The position numbers and the translations under genes were made by a program. A model generated the notes under the pieces. The model ran no database searches. It was given only the letters and a program-made list of their open reading frames with translations, and was not told the origin of the DNA. Below, in pieces: positions 575 through 1,617 of a DNA stretch of 20,345 nt; position 1 is the first letter of the stretch, and each line of letters starts with the position of its first letter. The stretch spans positions 1 to 20,345 of IMG/VR virus record IMGVR_UViG_3300022934_000258; one strand, 5' to 3'. This stretch comes from a virus.

Positions 575-775
575 TTAGTCGGGCCGCCGTTCAATTTCAT
601 ACTCAAGTTCGGCTATCGTCCGCAGCGCGTCCCTGGTGAAGTCCGGCGCCTCCATTGCCGCCCTTGGGAATTGCGGATGCGCCGTCAGCCTCTTGGTGTT
701 GTCGTACTCGACCGGCGCCGTATGGCAGCCCGTGAAGGCGCATAGCGTTATCAATATGAGTAAGTTTCGCTTCAT
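575..775 (-). CDS. Small lipoprotein, o-spanin (Rz1)-like
   Basis: A 66-residue protein with a textbook lipoprotein signal: MKRN, a hydrophobic core (LLILITLCA) and FTGC with the lipid-acceptor Cys at 17. The mature part is about 50 residues with a helical acidic C-terminus (ALRTIAELEYEIERR). I chose the ATG at 775 because the signal peptide begins there; the frame is open further upstream to 862 but that part is basic and lacks sense. Its first 173 bases lie inside the gene at 603-884 in another frame, the arrangement known for Rz/Rz1 spanin pairs. Rz1-type proteins sit in the outer membrane and join an inner-membrane partner to finish lysis in diderm hosts. The role is inferred from topology and location. 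Confidence 0.6.
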   Translation of the reverse strand: MKRNLLILITLCAFTGCHTAPVEYDNTKRLTAHPQFPRAAMEAPDFTRDALRTIAELEYEIERRPD

Positions 776-884
776 ATCTTGCTTTGGCTTTGGCTTCGCG
801 TATGGCATCCGATACCGACAAAAAAAGGCGCTCCAATGTCGGCAGCGCCTTGCAAAGCGCAACGATGGCGCCCACCAATGACAT
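603..884 (-). CDS. Membrane-proximal helical protein, possible inner spanin partner
   Basis: A 93-residue ORF starting at an ATG that overlaps the previous stop (TGATG). The N-terminus is hydrophobic and amphipathic (LVGAIVALCKALPTLERLF) and is followed by a charged helix rich in Ala, Lys and Glu (REAKAKARYEAKL). The last 40 residues are Gly-, Ala- and Gln-rich and low in predicted structure; they are encoded where the lipoprotein gene at 575-775 uses another frame, so their sequence may be constrained by it. The overlap, size and neighbours fit an inner-membrane spanin-like protein, but the hydrophobic segment is weak for a true membrane anchor. Short helical phage proteins with this kind of start are common next to lysis lipoproteins. 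Confidence 0.5.
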   Translation of the reverse strand: MSLVGAIVALCKALPTLERLFLSVSDAIREAKAKARYEAKLTHIDNAMRLHGLPYGAGRVRQHQEADGASAIPKGGNGGAGLHQGRAADDSRT

Positions 885-1060
885 CAAGCGTTTTCGGCGG
901 CGTTCTCGGCCTTTTTAACTCCATGCCGGAGAAAGACAGCCAGGGCGCTTGTTACTACAATTTGCAGCATCTCGCCGAATTGGATTTCCTCCATGAAAAA
1001 CGAACCGACCGCGCCGCAAATGGCCGTAACTCCGGCCCACAATGTTTTTGATTTTAGCAT
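884..1060 (-). CDS. Two-helix holin-like small membrane protein
   Basis: A 58-residue ORF, MLKSKTLWAG to AENAAENA. It has two hydrophobic stretches, roughly residues 7-23 (LWAGVTAICGAVGSFFM) and 29-45 (EMLQIVVTSALAVFLRH), and a charged C-terminal tail (HGVKKAENAAENA). Small proteins of this plan, with a TIWA- or TLWA-type start and an FLR-x-G end of helix 2, are frequent in phage lysis clusters and are annotated as holin or holin-like. It starts inside the upstream stop (TAATG) and its own TGA overlaps the next ATG (TGATG), so it is translationally coupled on both sides. Holins are inner-membrane proteins that trigger lysis by releasing or activating the endolysin. Confidence 0.6.
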   Translation of the reverse strand: MLKSKTLWAGVTAICGAVGSFFMEEIQFGEMLQIVVTSALAVFLRHGVKKAENAAENA

Positions 1061-1224
1061 TATTTTCCTTTGTTCCTAATTAAAAAAACTATCTTGGCAA
1101 CCAAGTAAACAAGGCAGGCGACCGAGATTGAAATTTGCAGTATTTGGGAGAGGTGTAGGTACCAAACGCCGACGCCACTTGTGCCGGCTCCCATCGCCTT
1201 GGCCATGTCGATGGCTTCATTCAT
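1060..1224 (-). CDS. Single-helix holin-like membrane protein
   Basis: A 54-residue ORF with a Gly-rich N-terminal segment (AMGAGTSGVGVWYLHLSQ), one clear membrane helix at about residues 28-49 (ILQISISVACLVYLVAKIVFLI) and a short basic end (RNKGK). The ATG overlaps the preceding lipoprotein stop as ATGA, and its TAA overlaps the following ATG as TAATG. Size, topology, positive C-terminus and position point to a holin or pinholin-type protein. No enzymatic motif is present. It and the next gene are adjacent holin-like ORFs, so one may be the holin and the other a regulator, or both may act together. Confidence 0.55.
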   Translation of the reverse strand: MNEAIDMAKAMGAGTSGVGVWYLHLSQILQISISVACLVYLVAKIVFLIRNKGK

Positions 1225-1430
1225 TTGGTGATGAAGTTGCCGTTCGTTGTCCGCTGCCAGGCGCCTTGTGGTGGCTCGTAAAATTCCACTTCAAATCCAG
1301 TAATTGATAAATCAATCGACTCGACGGGATTTGGCGTTACGCATCCTTGGCCGACAAGAATCGCAACCAAGCAGATTACTAAAATTGCGATGCTGTTCGC
1401 GCAACTCCGCAAGTCGTTTCTCAATTCCAC
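1221..1430 (-). CDS. Small lipoprotein-like ORF nested in the upstream membrane protein gene
   Basis: A 69-residue ORF with a GTG start at 1430. The N-terminus has a charged stretch then a hydrophobic core (SIAILVICLVAILVG) ending at QGC, which would place a lipid-acceptor Cys at about residue 30. The lipobox is imperfect, with Gly-Gln-Gly before Cys, so secretion as a lipoprotein is probable but not certain. The remaining 39 residues are polar with PP and several acidic residues, as in short outer spanins. The gene shares 119 bases with the upstream membrane protein gene in another frame and has a strong ribosome binding site inside it. Alternatives are a simple membrane peptide or a lysis regulator. 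Confidence 0.5.
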   Translation of the reverse strand: MELRNDLRSCANSIAILVICLVAILVGQGCVTPNPVESIDLSITGFEVEFYEPPQGAWQRTTNGNFITK

Positions 1431-1617
1431 AAATCTCCTTCTTTACCAGGTTAACCGAATCAATCAGCTTAACGATTATCGAATAGACGTTTTTAACCTC
1501 GCCGGATAAATCCCGCAGAACGTAGAACACCACGCGATAGCCAAACCACCCGACTGCCGCAGCGCAGACCACCGGAAACCCAAGCGTTTGGATTAAGTTG
1601 ACGGTGTCGGTTCCCAC
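1312..1617 (-). CDS. Membrane-anchored coiled-coil protein (BhlA-type holin or inner spanin)
   Basis: A 101-residue ORF starting at GTG (1617); an in-frame TGA sits just upstream, so no earlier start is possible. Residues about 9-32 form one membrane helix (LGFPVVCAAAVGWFGYRVVF), followed by a heptad-like charged helix up to about residue 75 (IVKLIDSVNLVKKEICGIEKRLAELRE). The C-terminal 25 residues are basic and coded across the region shared with the nested lipoprotein gene. An N-terminal anchor with a coiled coil is typical both of BhlA/UviB-like holins and of Rz-type inner spanins. The nested lipoprotein favours the spanin reading, while the NLIQTLGFP start resembles the BhlA group. I cannot choose between them from sequence. 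Confidence 0.55.
   Translation of the reverse strand: MGTDTVNLIQTLGFPVVCAAAVGWFGYRVVFYVLRDLSGEVKNVYSIIVKLIDSVNLVKKEICGIEKRLAELREQHRNFSNLLGCDSCRPRMRNAKSRRVD
1435..1440 (-). promoter_or_regulatory. Ribosome binding site inside the upstream gene
   Basis: The minus strand reads AAAGAAGGAGATTTGTGG. AAGGAG is a near-perfect Shine-Dalgarno core placed four bases before the GTG at 1430. It lies within the coding sequence of the gene at 1312-1617. Many starts in this window have no such site, so its presence supports the nested GTG-started ORF as genuinely translated. Confidence 0.65.

Follow-up and report, generated by a model that had tools for sequence, protein, structure and literature searches.

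The locus raises the question of why one phage gene cluster should hold two overlapping pairs, each made of a membrane or helical protein and a lipoprotein-like protein. The initial annotation had seen the hallmark of Rz/Rz1 spanins in both pairs, and proposed either a duplicated or two-step outer-membrane function, or that one pair is a holin with a regulator. In the scheme of PMC6139136 (Table 1), each of 677 genomes is assigned one spanin class or none, so that a cluster with two lipoprotein pairs would be an unusual case in that scheme. In our estimate there is an even chance that the two pairs are different envelope modules, one (E/F) being a diverged overlapped spanin-like pair and the other (A/B) a separate module of an inner-membrane protein and a lipoprotein.

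Gene order and relatives of the cluster

The window, by which we mean the whole 20,345-base virus record analysed, is a fragment of a tailed phage whose genes for terminase, portal, head and tail proteins lie on the minus strand. Past the tail genes, the order of transcription is 1629-1910, A, B, C, D, E, F and G, all on the minus strand. Gene A (1312-1617, GTG start) codes for 101 aa, with a single hydrophobic helix at about residues 14-34 and, after it, a basic region that is coiled-coil-like. Gene B (1221-1430, GTG start, 69 aa) codes for a small lipoprotein-like protein in the +1 frame of A (offset of 187 nt), overlaps A by 119 nt, and has a Shine-Dalgarno-like AAGGAG four bases before its GTG. 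Gene C (1060-1224, 54 aa), which is coupled to B, has one C-terminal hydrophobic helix, and D (884-1060, 58 aa) is a hydrophobic, holin-like protein with apparently two helices, as judged by eye. Gene E (603-884, 93 aa) starts with ATG, with a TTG one codon upstream, and has a conserved N-terminal helix and a disordered tail that corresponds to the overlap with F. Gene F (575-775, ATG start, 66 aa), in the +1 frame of E (offset of 109 nt), codes for a small lipoprotein-like protein with a conserved helical C-terminus. It is followed by G (161-574), a PD-(D/E)XK nuclease-like neighbour (PF11645, E 3e-7) that lies outside both pairs. Two real membrane/lipoprotein overlapping pairs in one lysis-like cluster are therefore confirmed, with homologues in dozens of viral contigs. 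Their initial description as nested holds for the overlap and not for the nesting, since B and F extend beyond the stops of A and E.

The pairs were searched for in relatives, as the initial annotation had proposed, which recovered viral contigs with A (9 loci) and with F (11 loci, then 71 through an F alignment). To these were added contigs with the terminase (33) and one contig from a metagenome-assembled genome (MAG). Profiles were run over 113 loci, among which the window counts as L001 and a single contig appears under two handles (L002/L011); they detected F in 74, D in 73, E in 72, C in 64, B in 35 and A in 16. Among the matches listed (15 of 568 matching records), the terminases of cultured phages are less than 30% identical to that of the window. 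No cultured relative of F was found in 50,697 phage records; A has a 22% match in four Methylophilales phages (E 0.04), and D has a match in two Synechococcus phages (E 0.03). One relative contig sits in a Verrucomicrobiales MAG, where it is possibly mis-binned.

Some further features of these loci were observed. A Shine-Dalgarno-like motif is absent at most A-F starts across the loci (for E it is present in 7 of 70), and from this scarcity the host may use few such motifs. At the edge of the window, on the minus strand, lies the start of a gene that this edge cuts (1-182); its first residues match an HExxH (SprT-like/metallopeptidase-like) gene located after G in L002 (6441-6761). Two loci have a protein of 107-111 aa between C and D (L010:1811-2146 and L015:4272-4595), with a signal-peptide-like start and no Pfam match.

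Coding constraint in the overlapped frames

Judged from their sequences, the four frames are all real genes. F has its lipid-type Cys in 51 of 52 unique copies in a scripted count, the exception (L078) being truncated before the Cys, and also in 7 further rows set aside by the script. In B all 27 unique copies have such a Cys, not counting two truncated loci. The initial reading depended on B being lipidated. In the window, the sites of B (GQGC) and F (FTGC) both miss the strict consensus [LVI][ASTVI][GAS]C, while the Cys is invariant in each family. The strict consensus is matched by 12 of 51 F copies, and a looser pattern fits 11 of 15 copies of F and 9 of 11 of B; no Asp directly follows the Cys in the 51 copies of F. 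Deviant lipoboxes such as LNGC and FVGC are listed among o-spanins (PMC6139136).

The overlap of E with F was examined by swapping F codons for synonymous ones at background usage and counting stops in the E frame up to a fixed end, the conserved end motif of F; 13 of 63 unique copies lacking this anchor motif were left out. The E frame has 6 stops in the 50 sequences, against 104.6 ± 8.3 expected under synonymous recoding. The deficit persists after thinning the sequences below 90, 80 and 70% identity (6 against 58.0, 5 against 42.3, and 4 against 33.2 expected, respectively), and under 60% identity, where 12 sequences have 3 stops against 26.1 ± 4.2 expected. So few stops argue that E is read through the overlap, despite its variable residues there. 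A variant of the count ending at the stop of E itself gives zero by construction. The variable sequence had given rise to the idea that the overlapped tail of E is an unconstrained read-through, which the fixed-end count rules out.

It is very improbable that one or more of the overlapped frames is merely an open frame and not a gene. Such a reading could draw on the poor conservation of the E residues in the overlap, where E differs from that of L002 at 13 of 57 positions and F at 6 of 57, with the changes falling on the third codon position of F, and on a count over the whole of F, past the stop of E, which is much weaker (118 stops against 189.5 expected). However, it is opposed by the fixed-end count before and after thinning, by the invariant Cys of F and B, by the occurrence of B free of A in other loci, and by the good conservation of E residues 1-47. 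Over the signal region of B, the A frame has no stops in 8 unique overlapped copies, against 5.7 ± 2.2 expected, and 20 stops in the 19 copies where A does not overlap B, a comparison that is partly circular as the groups were defined by the overlap of A. Between the window and L002, A differs at 1 of 62 residues before the overlap and at 10 of 39 inside it. The initial reading also depended on purifying selection in the overlapped frames; both are kept open, and the overlapped residues of E are not conserved.

Beyond the overlap, B differs between the window and L002 at 20 of 31 residues. The flanking A and C are nearly identical, and this part of B (1221-1311) is common to L002 and L003, which suggests allele exchange or fast change of the non-overlapped part.

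The E/F pair and its slot

By profile, E accompanies F in 72 of 74 F loci, and of the two others L019 carries E in diverged form at this place and L078 begins within F, which leaves the pair in 73 of 73 testable loci. In 71 of 72 loci the two genes overlap in the +1 register, an adjacency like that of Rz/Rz1. The pair comes immediately after D in nearly all loci, and stays together in L098, L101 and L104, where D lies about 0.9 kb away. In position and register E/F therefore bears out the spanin hallmark of the initial annotation, and A/B reads as another module (see below).

In the analysis of PMC6139136, overlapped spanins are the largest class (228 of 528), and in the three families compared there across architectures the lipoprotein is conserved and the partner diverges in the overlap. 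The pattern of E/F, with a conserved F and a diverging E tail, agrees with this. As in overlapped two-component spanins in that scheme (the P2 LysB/LysC type), the lipoprotein gene begins within its upstream neighbour, in a different frame, and extends beyond the end of that neighbour, the pair lies beside a holin-like gene, and non-homologous pairs occupy one slot. In contrast to these spanins, mature F is devoid of a periplasmic Cys, and the window has a second lipoprotein pair in its cluster.

F has the invariant Cys after a hydrophobic N-terminus, as expected for an o-spanin lipoprotein. The membrane anchor of E is less clear. It is predicted to form one helix from residue 2 to 50, with a disordered tail from residue 57, and its N-terminus is hydrophobic over residues 2-11, after which come Lys, Pro, Glu and Arg. 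The 19-residue hydropathy is 1.27-2.03, and these four residues fall inside the best 19-residue stretch of E, in which we found no convincing transmembrane helix, whereas i-spanins are type II membrane proteins. None of 51 copies has a further Cys in mature F, and E has none in 58 of 72; a periplasmic Cys in at least one partner is found in 507 of 528 listed two-component spanins, a common feature and not a strictly defining one. Family matches are sparse: one of 12 F sequences matches a spanin PHROG (0.0023), the E and F of the window have no family match above chance level, and the weak spanin matches may reflect signal peptides or coiled coils. No solved structure was found to resemble F. 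We conclude with moderate probability that E/F has a spanin-like action, and do not assign it to the spanins because of the poor transmembrane helix of E and the absence of the usual periplasmic cysteines.

In five loci (L004, L005, L006, L042 and L043) E/F is missing and a different overlapped pair with a lipoprotein comes right after D. The replacement partner begins with a hydrophobic stretch and also has a basic cluster and a helix; the second protein is lipoprotein-like; a like pair follows a small hydrophobic protein in L047. No homology of the replacement pairs to E and F was detectable (hhalign 13% and 28%, over short stretches). In a scan of three of them, those of L042 and L047 match Rz-like spanin PHROGs weakly (0.0016-0.063) and that of L004 has no spanin PHROG match. 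The lipoprotein and partner of L042 and L047 also have no cultured relatives in the 50,697 phage records. That the families differ while architecture and slot stay the same points to a single function at this site. As a separate observation, L017 and L047 belong to one contig of 38,875 bases with two lysis-like clusters near its ends, E/F being in one and the replacement-like pair in the other, with different neighbour genes; this contig may be a chimeric assembly.

Rather unlikely, in our view, is the explanation that neither pair acts in lysis, and that both lipoproteins modify the envelope late in infection, for example to exclude other phages, with the help of their small membrane neighbours. 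Inner-membrane and lipoprotein pairs are known in exclusion systems, which favours such a role, as do the lack of a clear membrane helix in E and of any spanin family match above the curated cut-off. It is harder to reconcile with the place of E/F directly after the holin-like D in nearly all loci, with its non-homologous replacement by a like pair, and with the RlpA-like gene downstream in L002. In this nearest relative, a DPBB (RlpA-like) gene whose product has a hydrophobic stretch at its N-terminus is found 0.75 kb past F, a place before which the window ends. The DPBB family was found in 3 of 16 records, and this low frequency counts against a spanin explanation that involves a downstream wall-cutting enzyme. 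The homologue of D in L012 matches the holin phrog_3428 at E 0.023 only.

Returning to the spanin-like reading of E/F, F would be exported, lipidated and anchored in the outer membrane, the conserved N-terminal helix of E would keep that protein at the inner membrane, and the two proteins would disrupt the outer membrane after D and the putative downstream wall-cutting enzyme have acted.

The A/B pair and the exchangeable partner of B

The initial idea of a duplicated pair is not borne out, as profile comparison detects no homology between B and F (hhalign 5%) or between A and E (0.3%), which rules out the duplication. The alternative that one pair has a different membrane function suits A/B better, since the upstream partner of B is either A or a minimal MscS-like protein, which we call M. 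Of 33 loci, 15 have A upstream of B and 18 have M there, and none has the two together; two further B loci are truncated by the end of their contig. The counts of A are biased because A was the query for some loci; among the loci from the F search there are 6 with A and 18 with M, and three of these six (L003, L010 and L011) are in contigs that the A search also found. M always occurs with B (18 of 18) and in none of the 18 loci without it.

M has about 129 residues (e.g. L065:3891-4280, and 17 other loci), with one long helix and a beta domain. It matches PF00924 at 23.1 bits, against a cut-off of 20.2 (E 8.1e-5), and its predicted fold (pLDDT 60) has MscS-family structures as best matches (best E 6.1e-5). 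M resembles MscS channels in its pore-type helix followed by a beta domain, and differs from them in its small size, in lacking the first helices and the cytoplasmic cage, and in being phage-borne and always adjoining B. No cultured relative of M was found in the 50,697 phage records.

A matches a PHROG of unknown function (phrog_18771, E 2.4e-11). With one membrane helix followed by a coiled-coil-like region, it may resemble small phage membrane proteins of the YvrJ/BhlA type; its match to PF12841 (E 0.24, 11.4 bits) is far below the Pfam cut-off of 29.5 bits. Among solved structures, none was found to resemble B, and those matching A are only coiled coils and other unconvincing cases. No K/R precedes the helix of A in 6 of the 7 copies shown, and basic residues follow it, which by a weak rule suggests an N-out/C-in topology; lambda Rz is likewise basic after its helix. 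C starts within 15 nt of the end of B in 28 of 35 loci.

Both pairs could be spanins, with A as i-spanin and B as o-spanin, forming two outer-membrane disruption systems or a two-step one. We consider this unlikely, even if A combines a membrane helix with a coiled-coil-like region, all 16 of its matched copies contain at least one Cys, and B carries a Cys-bearing lipoprotein signal. In addition, B overlaps A in the +1 frame in 8 unique copies and is separated from it in others, as happens in the spanin families of PMC6139136, and A has a match to an Rz-like spanin (phrog_739), at E 0.3 only. Against this stand the charge pattern of A, the presence in 18 loci of the MscS-like protein in place of A, which is no i-spanin design, and the fact that loci also having E/F always offer another pair in the spanin slot.

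The simplest reading is that A/B combines a protein of the inner membrane, perhaps a pore-like one, with a small lipoprotein, and is a different thing from the spanin-like pair. Closely coupled to C, and with either A or a minimal MscS-type protein as membrane partner, A/B would more likely alter the permeability of the membrane or modify the envelope (to time lysis, or to exclude other phages) than act as a second spanin, and the part of B in this can only be inferred.

The occurrence of both modules was followed in the larger records, all of them possibly incomplete, where 12 of 15 have B plus F or the replacement of F. Eight have B and F (G001, G006, G008, G009, G010, G012, G015 and G016; in G008, G010 and G012 B was detected by the B profile only), and four have B and a replacement pair (G002, G003, G004 and G017). 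B is present and F was not found in G005, the reverse is observed in G014, and G007 has F and a replacement-like pair and no B. F is found once per record. In G009 and G016 B is at the opposite end of the record from F, a separation that counts against the explanation of a cluster of two modules.

A more specific possibility, which we put forward tentatively, is that the envelope module consists of B and an exchangeable inner-membrane partner (A or the minimal MscS pore) beside a separate spanin-like pair, and that the captured mechanosensitive-type pore times or triggers lysis, or guards the infected cell. In the portions of the literature on phage spanins, MscS and lysis cassettes available to us, we found no report of a phage module pairing a lipoprotein with A or an MscS-like partner; this negative result does not extend to phages with two spanin systems.

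These findings add overlapping-lipoprotein gene families of uncultured phages that the libraries used do not recognise, and show clearly how one pair can be replaced by a non-homologous one at a spanin-like slot. That an MscS-type protein can take the place of A before the lipoprotein leads to a testable claim, namely that phages may have recruited a minimal mechanosensitive-type pore to the region of their lysis genes.
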